Origin: Dongia mobilis
GTDB taxonomy: Bacteria > Pseudomonadota > Alphaproteobacteria > Dongiales > Dongiaceae
Reading direction: 5' to 3'
DNA length: 64,000 nucleotides
Assembly (NCBI RefSeq): GCF_945906275.1
Contig: NZ_CAMDRA010000002.1
Location: 1-64,000 of the forward strand
In this document: one piece after another, positions 37,652 through 46,154 of the stretch
Layout: each line of letters begins with the position of its first letter
How positions within the stretch are numbered: position 1 is the stretch's first letter
Made by a program: the position numbers and the translations under genes
Notes under the pieces: generated by a model
The model's input: only the letters and a program-made list of their open reading frames with translations
Told to the model about the DNA's origin: nothing
Database searches by the model: none

Positions 37652-37653
<2 letters not shown>
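37030..37653 (+). CDS. rnhB: Ribonuclease HII
   Basis: The 207-residue protein starts at a GTG. The catalytic carboxylates are visible in ICGVDEVGRGPLAGPV (Asp, Glu) and ALVDGN (Asp). LDDSKKLSGKAR, KGDSKSLSIAAASILAKVER and NAGYGTAHHLDAIKTHG are family hallmarks. It removes ribonucleotides from DNA and RNA:DNA hybrids. rnhB immediately before ccrM is a conserved alphaproteobacterial arrangement. Confidence 0.95.
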
Positions 37654-38810
<1,157 letters not shown>

Positions 38811-40094: not shown

Positions 40095-41193
40095 GCGCGC
40101 GAGCGTCGCGGGCACCCAGCTCGGTCAACTTCCCCAATCCATGCTCAACGACCTTCCGCATGACGGTCGGCAGCGCTACGTTCCCGAGGTTGTCGATCTC
40201 GATCCACTGATAGCGCGTGTCGGACTTCACAGCGGTCGCCGCGAACACCACGAGATGCAAGGCGAAATGGGTGAAGACATGCGTGACGCTTCCTTCCAGC
40301 CGCCGCCATTTGGCCTTGAGGGGTGCCAGTTCATCAGCCTTGCCTTCGTCGAAGGCATCCCCCAGCCAGTCGCTGGTCGGCACCTGGACCATGCCGCCGA
40401 GGAGACCTTTTTCCGGGCGTTTCTCGATCGCGATGCGGCCTTGTTTGTCGATCATCACATAGCAGAGGCCAAAGCGCTGCGGCCGCGCCACTTTGGGCAA
40501 TTTCTTGGGGTAGGCCTCCATGTCGCCCGCCGCATGCGCCGCACAGATCTCGCGCCAGGGACATGAGATACATTTGGGCTTCGTCGGCGTGCATATGGTG
40601 GCGCCGAGATCCATGATCGCTTGCGCATAGTCGCCCGGCCGCTGTTGTGGCGTGAAGCGCGCCGCCAGCTTGCACAATTCTTCCTTGGCCTTGGGCAAGG
40701 GTGTCGCCACCCGGTGCAGCCGCGCCATGACGCGCTCGACATTGCCATCGAGGATCGTGGTGGGCTGGTCGAAGGCGATGGCCGCCACGGCGGCGGCTGT
40801 TTAGGGGCCGATGCCCGGCAGGCTGCGCAATCCTTCCTCGGTACCCGGAAAGACGCCGCCGTGATCCGTCACCACGACTTCCGCGCACTTCTTGAGGTTG
40901 CGGGCGCGGGCGTAATAGCCAAGCCCTGCCCAGGCGGTCAGCACATCATCGAGCGGGGCCGCCGCCAGATCGTGGACGCGCGGCCAGCGCTTCAGGAAAT
41001 CCCGGTAATAGGGACCGACCGTCACCACCGTCGTCTGTTGCAGCATGATCTCGGAGAGCCAGACATGATAGGGATCGGCGGGCTCGCCCGGGGCGGAGCG
41101 CCAGGGAAGGTGCCGCCGGTGGCGGTCATACCAGGCAAGAAGCTGAGATGCTGGCGATGGTGTTTGTTTGGGCGGCCCGGATTTGCGTGTCAT
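40084..41193 (-). pseudogene. mutY: Adenine DNA glycosylase, interrupted by in-frame TAA
   Basis: The full frame from ATG 41193 is 370 codons. It has the catalytic Glu region SEIMLQQTTVVTV, the helix-hairpin-helix SLPGIGP, the catalytic Asp region TILDGNVERVMARL, the [4Fe-4S] set CTPTKPKCISCPWREIC (C-x6-C-x2-C-x5-C) and a C-terminal NUDIX-like 8-oxoG recognition domain. A TAA at 40803-40801 (codon 131) replaces the Tyr of the conserved LPGIGPYTAAA hairpin, and the reading frame is otherwise perfect on both sides. TAC or TAT to TAA is a single base change. MutY removes A mispaired with 8-oxoG, and truncation here would abolish catalysis. It is divergent from dciA, the usual alphaproteobacterial order. 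Sequencing error is the main alternative. Confidence 0.9.
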
Positions 41194-41218
41194 GGCGGGC
41201 GACCTTAGACTGAGGCCC

Positions 41219-41758
41219 ATGAGCGACCAAGAGAGAAAACCGAAGCCTGGGTTGGAAGCCGAACGCCGCAACCGGCTGTCGGCCCTGGCCAGCAACGTCC
41301 CCAATCTCACCAAGCTCGCCCTCGGCCGCAAGGGCTTTGCCGAGGCCGGCCTCATCGGTGCCTGGCCCACCATCGTCGGCGAGGAGATCGCGCGCCTCGC
41401 CATCCCCGTGAAGATGCGCCTGCCGAGACCCAAGGGCGAGAAGGCCGCGACCCCGGCTATTCCTTCCGGTGTCGTCCCCAATGTGGCGGGTGGCACCCTC
41501 ACCTTGCGCGCCAGTTCGGCTGCCAGCCTGGAGGTGCAGCATCTCAAGCCGCGTATCCTGGAACGCATCACCCGCTATTTCGGCTATCCCGCCATCACCG
41601 AAATCAAGATCGAGATCGGCGACCGGCGCAAAGCCGCGCCCAAGGCGCGCCGCCCGGCACCCGGACCGGCTACACCCCTCGACCTCTCAAAGGTCAGTGA
41701 TCCGGAGATCCGCGAGGCCCTGCAGCGACTCGGGGCGGCGCGGGCCAAGCGTCCCTAA
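41219..41758 (+). CDS. dciA: DUF721 / DciA-like protein
   Basis: The 179-residue protein carries the DUF721 core at about residues 30-135 (GFAEAGLIGAWPTIVGEEIA, GTLTLRASSAASLEVQHLKP, LERITRYFGYPAITEIKIEI) and a basic, proline-rich C-terminus. DciA proteins load or interact with the replicative helicase DnaB in bacteria lacking DnaC. The gene is divergent from mutY by 25 bp and precedes the DsbA-like and smc genes. Confidence 0.85.
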   Translation: MSDQERKPKPGLEAERRNRLSALASNVPNLTKLALGRKGFAEAGLIGAWPTIVGEEIARLAIPVKMRLPRPKGEKAATPAIPSGVVPNVAGGTLTLRASSAASLEVQHLKPRILERITRYFGYPAITEIKIEIGDRRKAAPKARRPAPGPATPLDLSKVSDPEIREALQRLGAARAKRP

Positions 41759-41783: not shown

Positions 41784-41905
41784 CAGAATCCGACTGGACA
41801 ATGGGCGACTCGCCAGAATCCAACGGCTTACGCGGCGACTCTCCAATTGTGGCAGCGGCCCCACCGGCAGGTCACCGATCCCTTGCTTGCAAGCCCCTCT
41901 GAATC
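41784..41905 (+). promoter_or_regulatory. Five GANTC sites, four within a tandem 30-bp repeat, upstream of the dsbA-like/smc genes
   Basis: GANTC sites lie at 41786, 41807, 41816, 41837 and 41901. The first four are paired inside two adjacent 30-bp units (41784-41813 and 41814-41843), each of the form CAGAATCC-N14-GGCGACTC. The gap 41759-41950 holds no gene. GANTC is the CcrM site, and ccrM is 3 kb away. This density is far above chance, so the region is a good candidate for methylation-dependent control. Confidence 0.7.
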
Positions 41906-41950
41906 CTGCCAAATAGCGGCGAAATCGGGCCTCATTCTTGAGGCCCCGAA

Positions 41951-42649
41951 ATGGAGGCGATGTTGAACGCGCGCAATCTCGTGATCGGTGTTGTGGTTTT
42001 GGCCCTGGCCGGTGTCGGCGGTTTTTATGCCTGGACCCATTACGGTCCCAGCGCCGCCGCCACCGCGAGCGACAATCCGGCACTGGCGGGCCTCCCCGCC
42101 CCGATCGACAGCCCGATGAACCAGGCCCAGGAAGGCGACATGGTCATGGGCGATGCCAACGCGCCCATCACCTTCATCGAATATTCCTCGCTCTCCTGCC
42201 CGCATTGCGCCCGCCATCACATGACGGTGCTGCCGGAAATCAAGAAGCAGTATATCGACACCGGCAAGGTGAAGCTGGTGCTGCGCGACTTCCCGCTGAA
42301 CGGTCCCGCCGTCCAGGCCTCGATGCTGGCCCATTGCGTCTCGCCACTTGCTTACTGGGGCATGGTCGACCAGCTGTTCGCGACGCAGCAGGCCTGGGTC
42401 GTCGAGAATTCCGGCCCGGCCTTGGCCGTCATCGCCGCCGCCGCCGGCATCAACGGCCAGGATTTCCAGGGTTGCCTCAGCGACCAGGCCATCAAGGACA
42501 AGATCATTGCCTCGGCCGAAAATGCCGACAAGGCGTACAAGGTGGAATCGACCCCGACCTTCGTGGTCAACGGCATCGTCATCAAGGGCGAAAAATCGTT
42601 CGAGGAATTCAAGAAGATCTTCGACGCCCTCGCTCCCGCTGCCAACTAA
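41951..42649 (+). CDS. DsbA-family thiol:disulfide protein (Com1/BdbD-like), membrane-anchored or secreted
   Basis: The 232-residue protein has an N-terminal hydrophobic segment (LVIGVVVLALAGVGGFYAW) serving as signal or anchor. A thioredoxin fold follows with the active site LSCPHCARHHM (CPHC), an inserted helical domain, and the cis-Pro loop VESTPTFVVNG. It probably introduces or isomerises disulfides in the periplasm. A DsbA-like gene between dciA and smc is conserved in many alphaproteobacteria. A second ATG lies at 41960. Confidence 0.9.
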   Translation: MEAMLNARNLVIGVVVLALAGVGGFYAWTHYGPSAAATASDNPALAGLPAPIDSPMNQAQEGDMVMGDANAPITFIEYSSLSCPHCARHHMTVLPEIKKQYIDTGKVKLVLRDFPLNGPAVQASMLAHCVSPLAYWGMVDQLFATQQAWVVENSGPALAVIAAAAGINGQDFQGCLSDQAIKDKIIASAENADKAYKVESTPTFVVNGIVIKGEKSFEEFKKIFDALAPAAN

Positions 42650-42689: not shown

Positions 42690-45600
42690 TTGGTCCAGTT
42701 CAACAAAGTCCGCCTGACCGGCTTCAAATCCTTCGTCGAATCCACGGAGCTGTCGATTCAGGCCGGGATGACCGGGATCGTCGGCCCCAATGGCTGCGGC
42801 AAGTCGAACCTGGTCGAGGCGTTGCGTTGGGTGATGGGCGAAACTTCGGCCAAGCGCATGCGCGGCGGCGAGATGGACGATGTCATCTTCGGCGGCAGCG
42901 GCAGCCGGCCGGCGCGCAACGTCGCCGAAGTGGTGCTGACCCTCGACAATGCCGATCGCCGCGCTTCCGCCCAGTTCAACGACAGCGATGACCTCGAAAT
43001 CTCGCGCCGCATCGATCGCGGCGAAGGCTCGACCTACAAGGTCAACGGCAAGGAAGCCCGCGCCCGCGACGTGCAGCTGCTGTTCGCCGACATCTCGGCC
43101 GGTGCCCATTCGACCGCCCTGGTGAGCCAGGGCCGCGTCGGTGCCATCGTCAACGCCAAGCCCACCGACCGCCGTTCGCTGCTCGAAGAAGCAGCCGGCA
43201 TCACCGGCCTGCATACCCGCCGACATGAAGCCGAACTGCGCTTGAAGGCCGCCGAAGCCAATCTCGCGCGCCTCGACGACGTCATCATCACGCTGGAAAG
43301 CCAGCTCGGCCAGTTGAAGAAGCAGGCGCGCCAGGCCTCGCGCTATCGCAACCTGCAGGACCATATCCGCCGCGCCGAGGCGATCCTGTTCCACATCCAA
43401 TGGCAGGACGCACGCCAGCGCCTGTATTATTCCGAAAAGACGCTGATGGCGGCGGAAACCGCCGTCGTCTCGCTGACCTCGGCCGCGGCCATCGCCACCA
43501 CGCGGCAGACCGAGGCCGCCACGATCCTGCCCAGCCTCCGCCAGGCGGAAGCCGAGGCCGCCGCGGAACTGCAGCGCCTGACCATCGCGCGCGGCGCCCT
43601 CGACAAGGAAGAAGAACGCATCGCCCAGGCGCGCGCCGACGCCGACCGTCAGTTGCGCGAGAACGAGGCCGATCACGGCCGCGAATTGGCGCTCACCACC
43701 GATGCGGTCGCCGCCGCCGAACGCCTTTCCGAAGAACGCGCCATCATCACCGAGACTGCCAGCGAAGAAGCTGCGATCTCCGAGGAAACCCAGCGCCGCG
43801 TCGAAGGTGCACAAGCCGAGGTCGATGAGAGCGAAGCCGAACTCGGCCGCCTCACGCAGGATCTGGCCGCCGCCGAAGCCCGCGCTCACGCCCTCACCCG
43901 CCGCCTTGATGAACTGGTGCAGCGCCGCCAGCGCCTCGCCAACCGCGCGCAGGAAGTGGATGCCGAGCGTCAGCGTCTTTCCGCCGAGATCGAAAACGAT
44001 ACCGAGACTCAAGGTGCCCGCGCCGCCGTCGCCGATGCCGAAGCAGCCCTTGAGGAAGCCCAGGCAATCCTCGCCGAGATCGAAGCCCAGCGCGGCCTTG
44101 CCGGCGAAGCAGAGACCAATGCCCGCGCCCAGCTGCAACAGGCCCAGGATGCGCGCCAGCGCCTGAAGGCCGAGGCCGACGCGCTCTCCTCGATCTTCGC
44201 CACCTCGGATTCCGAGATGTGGCCGCCGATGATCGACAGTCTCACCGTGGCCCCCGGCTATGAAACGGCTCTCGCCGCCGCCTTGGGTGATGATCTTCAG
44301 GCTTCGGCCGATCTCGGTGCCCCCGCGCATTGGCGCGAAGGCGATACCGATGACAACGCCACCGGCCTGCCCGTGGGATCGGCGCCACTGTCGCGTTTCG
44401 TCACCGGCTCGGTAGCGCTCGGTCGGCGTTTGGCACAGATCGGCGTGGTCGACGACGAGGCCTCCTGCCGGGCGCTCGGCCTGCAGTTGAAGCAAGGCCA
44501 ACGCCTCGTCTCCAAGGACGGCGCGATGTGGCGCTGGGATGGCTTCACCATCGCCGCCGGCACCGAAACCGCCGCCGCCACGCGCCTCAAGCAGCGCAAC
44601 CGCCTGCGCCAGCTTGATGATGAACTGGGCGCGGCCGAGGCAGCCCTTTCGGAAGTGGAAGCGCAGTTCGGCACCGCGCGCGACGAAGCGCAAAACCTCA
44701 TCGACCGCGAGCGCAGCCAGCGCCAGACCCTGCAGGCGGCCTATAACGCCGCGCGGGCTGCGCGCGATGCCGCCGCCCGCGTCGAGCAGCGCGCGACCCA
44801 GATGCAGTCGCGCCTCGCCGCCGTCGGTGAACAGGCCGAGGCCGTTGCCGGCGACATCGCCGAACTCGAAGGCCAGTTGGAAGCAGCGGCCGCCGAGCGC
44901 GCCGAACTGCCGGATCTAGATACCGCCCGCCACCGCATCAACGAATTGCGTCCCGAAGTGGCCGAGCGCCGGACGCGTCTCGTCGAAGCGCGCTCCGCCC
45001 TTGATCGCCTGCAGCGCGAGGCGCAGCAGCGCCAGACACGCCTCCTCGCCATCGCCGACGAACTCCGCTCCTGGGAGCAGCGTGGCCAGCGCGCGCAAGC
45101 CCATCTCGACGAACTGGTCGAACGCCGCGCGCATATCGAACAGGAAATCGAGCGCCTCTCTGCCCTGCCTGGCGAGATTGCACAGCAGCGCAGCGACCTC
45201 ATGGATCTCCTGGAAGTCTCCGAGGAAAAGCGCCGCGATGCGGCCGACGCGCTGGCTGCGGCCGAGACTGCCCTCAATGAGGCTGATCGCGGCCTGAAGG
45301 GTGAAGAACACAAGCTGATCGAAGCCCGCGAGCAGCGCGTGCGGGCCGAGGCCGCCATCGAGCAGGCCAAGGAAGCGGCGGCGACCCTCACGGAACGCAT
45401 CCGCGAAAAGCTTGAATGTTCGCCCGAAGAAGTTCTGGCACTGGCCGAACTCGATCCCGGCGAGGGGTTGCCGGGCCGCGAGGAGACCGAACAGCGCCTC
45501 AACAAATTGCTGCGCGAACGGGAGAATATCGGCCCCGTGAACCTGCGCGCCGAGACCGAATCCAACGAGCTCGACCAGCAATTGTCGGGCATGCAGACCG

Positions 45601-46154
45601 AGCGCTCCGATCTCATCAACGCCATCTCACGCCTGCGCCAGGGTATTGCGTCACTCAACCGCGAAGGCCGTGAACGGCTGCTCGCTGCCTTCGAACTGGT
45701 GAACGGCCATTTCACCTCGCTGTTCACGCGCCTCTTCGGCGGCGGCAAGGCGCATCTGCAATTGACCGAGGCCGAAGATCCGCTCGATGCCGGCCTCGAG
45801 ATTTTCGCCAGCCCGCCCGGCAAGAAGCTCCAGGTTCTTTCGCTGCTCTCGGGCGGCGAACAGGCACTGACGGCGCTTGCCCTGTTGTTCGCCGTGTTCC
45901 TCGTCAACCCGGCACCGATCTGCGTGCTGGACGAGGTCGACGCACCGCTGGATGACGCCAATGTCGAGCGCTTCTGCAATCTGGTTCAGGAACTGGCCGA
46001 AGCCTCGGGCACGCGCTTTCTGGTCATCACGCACCATCGCCTGACCATGGCCCGCATGGACCGCCTCTACGGCGTCACCATGGCGGAACGCGGCGTCAGC
46101 CAACTGGTATCGGTGGATCTCCAGGAAATCGCGCATCTGAAGGCGGCATCGTAA
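42690..46154 (+). CDS. smc: Chromosome segregation protein SMC
   Basis: The protein has 1154 residues from a TTG start preceded by AAGGA. The N-terminal head has Walker A GIVGPNGCGKSNLVEALRWV. Long coiled coils (residues about 165-500 and 640-990) flank a hinge around 500-600. The C-terminal head carries the signature LSGGEQALTALALLF and Walker B ICVLDEVDAPLDDANVERF. It condenses and helps segregate the chromosome with ScpA and ScpB. Large antisense ORFs in this gene (694 and 412 residues) are codon-bias shadows. Confidence 0.97.
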   Translation: MVQFNKVRLTGFKSFVESTELSIQAGMTGIVGPNGCGKSNLVEALRWVMGETSAKRMRGGEMDDVIFGGSGSRPARNVAEVVLTLDNADRRASAQFNDSDDLEISRRIDRGEGSTYKVNGKEARARDVQLLFADISAGAHSTALVSQGRVGAIVNAKPTDRRSLLEEAAGITGLHTRRHEAELRLKAAEANLARLDDVIITLESQLGQLKKQARQASRYRNLQDHIRRAEAILFHIQWQDARQRLYYSEKTLMAAETAVVSLTSAAAIATTRQTEAATILPSLRQAEAEAAAELQRLTIARGALDKEEERIAQARADADRQLRENEADHGRELALTTDAVAAAERLSEERAIITETASEEAAISEETQRRVEGAQAEVDESEAELGRLTQDLAAAEARAHALTRRLDELVQRRQRLANRAQEVDAERQRLSAEIENDTETQGARAAVADAEAALEEAQAILAEIEAQRGLAGEAETNARAQLQQAQDARQRLKAEADALSSIFATSDSEMWPPMIDSLTVAPGYETALAAALGDDLQASADLGAPAHWREGDTDDNATGLPVGSAPLSRFVTGSVALGRRLAQIGVVDDEASCRALGLQLKQGQRLVSKDGAMWRWDGFTIAAGTETAAATRLKQRNRLRQLDDELGAAEAALSEVEAQFGTARDEAQNLIDRERSQRQTLQAAYNAARAARDAAARVEQRATQMQSRLAAVGEQAEAVAGDIAELEGQLEAAAAERAELPDLDTARHRINELRPEVAERRTRLVEARSALDRLQREAQQRQTRLLAIADELRSWEQRGQRAQAHLDELVERRAHIEQEIERLSALPGEIAQQRSDLMDLLEVSEEKRRDAADALAAAETALNEADRGLKGEEHKLIEAREQRVRAEAAIEQAKEAAATLTERIREKLECSPEEVLALAELDPGEGLPGREETEQRLNKLLRERENIGPVNLRAETESNELDQQLSGMQTERSDLINAISRLRQGIASLNREGRERLLAAFELVNGHFTSLFTRLFGGGKAHLQLTEAEDPLDAGLEIFASPPGKKLQVLSLLSGGEQALTALALLFAVFLVNPAPICVLDEVDAPLDDANVERFCNLVQELAEASGTRFLVITHHRLTMARMDRLYGVTMAERGVSQLVSVDLQEIAHLKAAS

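Follow-up and report, generated by a model that had tools for sequence, protein, structure and literature searches.

A dense GANTC cluster ahead of dsbA–smc in Dongia bears signs of selection and probably tunes the operon by DNA methylation

In this study, we found that five GANTC sites, the target of the methyltransferase CcrM, are crowded into the 192-bp gap between dciA and dsbA–smc in a 64,000-nt stretch of the genome of Dongia mobilis (hereafter the window, meaning the whole stretch of DNA that was analysed). The density of these sites ahead of dsbA–smc is beyond chance. Judged by comparison with related genomes, the cluster bears signs of selection within the Dongiaceae, the family of the Rhodospirillales in which Dongia is placed. 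We consider it fairly probable that the gap is a methylation-responsive promoter region of the CcrM/GcrA type, with DNA methylation probably tuning the dsbA–smc operon.

Results

Genes around the cluster

The genes stand in the order ccrM, an MFS transporter gene, mutY (on the reverse strand; named from its NUDIX_4 domain and its position), dciA, the gap, the gene for a DsbA-like protein and smc (Table 1). As the DsbA-like gene comes first, smc would be the second gene of the putative operon. Both CcrM and GcrA are encoded: ccrM lies within the window, 3 kb from the cluster, and its product matches the NCBIfam CcrM model with E = 1.6e-191 and 635.7 bits, below the curated (Caulobacter-level) cut-off of 830 bits, while GcrA was recognized in the same genome (PF07750, E = 9.4e-36) and scored over the cut-off in 16 of 16 family genomes. 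In G010, a family genome assembled as a single contig (a 5.87-Mb chromosome), a distance of 0.90 Mb separates the operon from dnaA and one of about 1.17 Mb separates it from the Kinase/PPPase gene that lies near a candidate origin; the operon would thus sit 31–40% of the way along a replichore.

Table 1. Features of the ccrM–smc region, in window coordinates
Feature	Position	Strand	Evidence or remarks
ccrM, GANTC adenine methyltransferase	37707–38810	+	Pfam N6_N4_Mtase 1.5e-67 and RAMA 2.3e-17
dciA (DUF721), upstream of the cluster	41168–41758	+	Pfam DciA 2.3e-15
CGACTC in the final codons of dciA, holding GANTC 41727	41726–41731	+	Encodes Arg-Leu within the conserved RLG
Imperfect 30-bp direct repeat, two copies	41784–41843	+	GANTC at 41786, 41807, 41816 and 41837
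Block B, CTGGACA-N4-GCGACTCGCC-N-GAATCCAA-N-GGCTTA	41794–41830	+	Invariant runs; GANTC pair 41807/41816, 9 bp apart
−35-like hexamer TTGCAA	41887–41892	+	TTGC placed exactly 14 bp ahead of [GA]AATC, 15/15 family genomes; putative role
GAATC in the 17-nt spacer of the putative −35/−10	41901–41905	+	14/15 family genomes (AAATC in G015)
−10-like hexamer CAAATA, weakly matching TATAAT	41910–41915	+	Inside the 26-nt invariant run 41899–41924; putative role
DsbA-like thioredoxin-fold protein	41951–42649	+	Pfam Thioredoxin_4 8.9e-44; first gene of the putative operon
smc	42690–46154	+	TIGR02168 SMC_prok_B 852.7 bits (cut-off 567); 40-bp gap; second gene of the putative operon

GANTC sites and their density

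The sites in the gap are GAATC at 41786, GACTC at 41807, GAATC at 41816, GACTC at 41837 and GAATC at 41901; a sixth GANTC, at 41727, falls within dciA. The first four are spaced by 21, 9 and 21 bp in succession. An initial annotation, made from the letters of the window, had described five sites within 120 bp ahead of the dsbA-like and smc genes, two 21-bp gaps with a 30-bp period, and a density far above expectation, and the positions, the measured spacings and the location in the gap preceding dsbA–smc all agree with it. As regards density, the window holds fewer GANTC than its shuffled versions do (114 observed against 314 in shuffles). In a sample of 1.256 Mb, taken in stretches and amounting to about a third of the 3.72-Mb assembly (of which the window is contig C2), GANTC occurs at 1.75/kb overall, with 2.97/kb for noncoding against 1.63/kb for coding sequence, the two classes being mapped by a simple ORF and GC3 rule. 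The probability per site of at least four further GANTC within 116 bp is 6e-5 at the genome rate and 4.4e-4 at the noncoding rate; multiplied by the 336 noncoding sites, the latter gives about 0.15 expected clusters of this density. Three loci were observed in the sample, namely the dciA–dsbA, rpsT–dnaA and folB–uvrC gaps, of which the first was the reason why the window was picked and the others were not preselected. The 9-bp pair GANTC-N4-GANTC occurs at 15 places genome-wide against nine for the reversed control pattern, so the enrichment is not clear and we rejected the pair as a general genome-wide element.

A search of the whole genome for three GANTC with gaps of 25 nt or less returned 34 places (10 for the reversed pattern), and the same search in the congener G006 returned 33 (23 for the reversed pattern). 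It added two dense gaps, eno–ftsB-like and hemE–Kinase/PPPase, and several of the clusters recur in G006 or G010. The rpsT–dnaA gap has five GANTC in about 110 bp (L150 3965–4072, G000 contig C5), and the sites before dnaA are dense in G006 also (L220 1376–1434). The densest cluster of the sample, with six GANTC in about 105 bp, is that of the folB–uvrC gap (L187 3434–3538, G000 contig C42), partly retained in G006 (C1:575202). Five GANTC in 73 bp lie between eno and the ftsB/DivIC-like gene (L208 2356–2424, G000 contig C175), a cluster also present in G006 (L221 2176–2252). The hemE–Kinase/PPPase gap carries nine in about 330 bp (L212 2351–2684, G000 contig C4), and at least eight lie within 260 bp beside the Kinase/PPPase gene in G010 (L231 2428–2688). 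In Caulobacter, this gap is the position of the replication origin, and by analogy it is a candidate origin here. The ccrM promoter region (window 37652–37694) has four GANTC and reads TTGACA-N4-GAGTC-N4-GACTC; it is nearly identical in G006 (C1:1169259–1169301), and ccrM probably controls itself through this 9-bp-spaced pair. It is well established from work in Caulobacter that dnaA and ccrM are of the kinds that CcrM targets. The dsbA–smc cluster is thus one of a small group in which such known kinds of CcrM target are found.

Conserved blocks in the gap

We aligned the gap, together with the end of dciA, across six congeneric genomes (the window and five congeners), with the congeners 64–85% identical to the window over the gap in pairwise comparison. 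The invariant runs of at least 6 nt are GCGACTCGG (41725–41733) in dciA, CTGGACA (41794–41800), GCGACTCGCC (41805–41814), GAATCCAA (41816–41823), GGCTTA (41825–41830), CTTGCA (41886–41891) and the 26-nt CTGAATCCTGCCAAATAGCGGCGAAA (41899–41924). Columns that define a GANTC are invariant in 13 of 20 cases, against 58 of 172 for the remaining gap columns (Fisher p = 0.007, although the columns are not independent). Across the family, in the 15 genomes with a usable dsbA locus, counts were made from the sequences themselves: the pair GACTC-N4-GANTC is present in 10 and GAATCCTGC in 13. The promoter-like element takes the form TTGCNN-N8-GAATC-CTGC-CAAAWA in relatives (Dongiaceae, Rhodospirillales). 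The proposal that the GANTC cluster is a regulatory element thus stands in part, the 41807/41816 pair, site 41901 and the dciA site being conserved, 41837 absent from all six congeners and 41786 kept in two of them.

The tandem repeat emphasized in the initial annotation fared worse. Its copies (41784–41813 and 41814–41843) share 70% identity; they match at both ends (CAGAATCC and GGCGACTC) but scarcely in the middle, and Tandem Repeats Finder did not report a 30-bp repeat. Both units do carry GAATC and GACTC at an equal spacing of 21 bp, and a 21-bp spacing is seen again beside the 9-bp pair, where G002 and G003 have it on one flank and G012 on the opposite one, as might be expected if the 30-bp repeat itself were the element, a duplicated methylation cassette. 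Yet site 41837 is kept in none of the six congeners, and site 41786, with its 21-bp spacing, in two of the six. With the divergence of the copies, this makes a repeat cassette highly improbable, and we rejected the repeat as a functional unit; nor is it conserved as a unit upstream of smc in these relatives, a check that the annotation had suggested. A phasing of about two helical turns (21 bp) may matter, but the repeat unit as such is not inherited.

The site within dciA

The Arg-Leu-Gly at the C-terminal end of DciA is conserved. In the last dciA codons, CGACTCGG was found in all 13 family members in which the dciA end could be located upstream of dsbA (loci L010–L018, L020, L022 and L023 among them). 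A further 34 Alphaproteobacteria share this Arg-Leu-Gly, and they write its Arg-Leu as CGGCTC, CGCCTC and other codon pairs, never as CGACTC. In the Dongia genome itself, CGACTC makes up 0.8% (24/2985) of Arg-Leu codon pairs. The 13 occurrences share ancestry and are not independent events; there are, however, members whose DsbA proteins share 40–50% identity, between which synonymous positions had ample time to drift, and selection on the DNA of these codons is therefore likely. That CGACTC is fixed in the family and absent elsewhere suggests that intragenic methylation sites may be selected as DNA, not as protein.

Distribution outside the family

The order dciA–dsbA–smc is kept in about 70 loci, and mutY–dciA–dsbA–smc is widespread outside the family, where ccrM often lies no more than about 5 kb away. 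Outside the Dongiaceae the gap mostly holds none to two GANTC, and class-wide conservation of the cluster was rejected, since most of these loci hold few. As most loci beyond the family are without the cluster, smc expression does not in general require it. Exceptions upstream of dsbA include L116 (Kiloniellaceae), with five GANTC, and L104 (Ferrovibrio), with two, both at other spacings; these sites were possibly gained independently. From the sequences compared, the arrangement is lineage-specific, conserved in the Dongiaceae alone.

A putative promoter with GANTC in its spacer

A simple scan of the region returned no E. coli-type (consensus) sigma70 promoter and no intrinsic terminator. A sigma70-type promoter may nevertheless be read as TTGCAA-N17-CAAATA (41887–41915), with GAATC in the spacer, and its weak −10 would fit a promoter that requires an activator. 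Transcription would be expected to start at about 41921–41923, some 28–30 nt before dsbA. Under the mechanism that we propose, CcrM would methylate the GANTC sites, and GcrA, acting with RNA polymerase holoenzyme, would favour the methylated spacer site and stimulate initiation. Passage of the replication fork would leave the sites hemimethylated until CcrM returns, and the output of dsbA–smc would vary with replication. The upstream sites, comprising the 9-bp-spaced pair about 90 bp upstream of the putative promoter and the one at the end of dciA, could be auxiliary GcrA sites or part of a second, weaker promoter. We infer that the promoter is active and timed in the cell cycle, that the sites are methylated and bound by GcrA, and that dsbA and smc are transcribed together; by analogy with known systems, dsbA–smc transcription would be set by methylation state and GcrA.

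The extended GcrA motif YGAKTCK was derived in Caulobacterales (PMC7987155). On the reverse strand it is fitted by 41807 (CGACTCG) and by the dciA site 41727 (CGACTCG, reverse CGAGTCG), but not by 41901 (TGAATCC), 41786, 41816 or 41837. TTG at the −14 offset was found before nine other noncoding GANTC against 3.2 expected, a weak excess that is not significant after correction for about 23 offsets, and a genome-wide TTG–GANTC rule was rejected on this ground. The full promoter motif occurs in the 1.256-Mb sample at the dsbA–smc gap alone, so that the sample revealed no regulon.

An alternative is an ordinary, perhaps constitutive, sigma70 promoter of dsbA–smc in which GAATC is simply promoter sequence, the effect of methylation is small and the other GANTC reflect intergenic drift. 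Conservation of 41899–41924 reaches well past the GANTC, G015 lacks the G of GAATC and keeps the rest of the element, and GANTC is commoner in noncoding than in coding DNA here (2.97 against 1.63/kb) as in Alphaproteobacteria (PMC3973325). We regard this explanation as unlikely, given that it leaves unexplained the separate 9-bp pair retained by 10 of the 15 genomes, the dciA CGACTC in 13/13 family members against 0/34 others, and the near-invariant spacer GAATC. Block B, whose conservation also extends beyond its GANTC (CTGGACA, GGCTTA), might instead be bound by a different regulator, such as a MucR-like protein, that occludes CcrM and makes a local hypomethylated switch. MucR does occlude CcrM and yields hypomethylated GANTC in Caulobacter and Sinorhizobium, including at a promoter with four GANTC (PMC5172544). 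The region has no LexA-like (GTTC-N7-GTTC) or CtrA-like (TTAA-N6-7-TTAA) box, which speaks against another regulator, and this possibility seems to us quite improbable. A CcrM/GcrA-type promoter region remains our preferred reading of the gap.

Discussion

CcrM/GcrA regulons are reported to rewire fast between close relatives, even within the Caulobacterales (PMC7987155). In our analysis, a GANTC set before dsbA–smc is retained across one family of the Rhodospirillales. More tentatively, and as a possibility that we hold to be less than probable, the promoter with GANTC in its spacer, the phased pair and the selected dciA GANTC might together form a composite methylation sensor in the Dongiaceae that ties dsbA–smc expression to fork passage. 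Such a sensor would exert direct epigenetic cell-cycle control of smc and would belong to a limited group of GANTC clusters, the others being at dnaA, ccrM, ftsB, uvrC and the candidate origin. If the sites before dsbA–smc act as we propose, the supply of condensin would be coupled to replication via DNA methylation.

The initial annotation knew of no described example of such an arrangement. This needs qualification, because Caulobacter has well-documented GANTC promoters whose timing depends on replication and methylation, namely ctrA P1, ftsZ and mipZ (PMC3667746, PMC3708114, PMC4287350), where GcrA binding depends on methylation (PMC3667746) and a GANTC between −35 and −10 is associated with activation at 40–60 min of the cycle (PMC4287350). 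None was found for smc in open-licence papers, and searches of the same literature returned no study of the CcrM/GcrA regulon in the Rhodospirillales. The kind of promoter is thus already known, while we did not find the dsbA–smc target or the composite layout described in open-licence papers.

Within the window, the closest likeness is to the ccrM promoter region, in which a 9-bp-spaced GANTC pair likewise comes after a −35-like hexamer. However, block B has TGGACA rather than TTGACA as its hexamer, standing 6 bp ahead of the pair, and a second, better candidate promoter lies downstream of it. The gap also resembles the promoters occluded by MucR in holding several GANTC in one promoter region, with regulation linked to methylation there (PMC5172544) and putatively here. 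With the CcrM/GcrA promoters of Caulobacter (ctrA P1, ftsZ, mipZ and podJ P2), it shares a GANTC in or beside a sigma70-type promoter, here a putative one, of a cell-cycle gene, and a genome that encodes both CcrM and GcrA. Promoters of this type carry GANTC no more than about 50 bp ahead of the transcription start, in the early class between −35 and −10. The site between −35 and −10 in Caulobacter ftsZ and in one class of cell-cycle transcription start sites (PMC3708114, PMC4287350) may have its counterpart in 41901, between putative hexamers. Unlike the Caulobacter promoters, that of Dongia would serve dsbA–smc, its spacer site is TGAATCC and not CGACTC/YGAKTCK, and an additional 9-bp GANTC pair lies upstream, as does a site in dciA.
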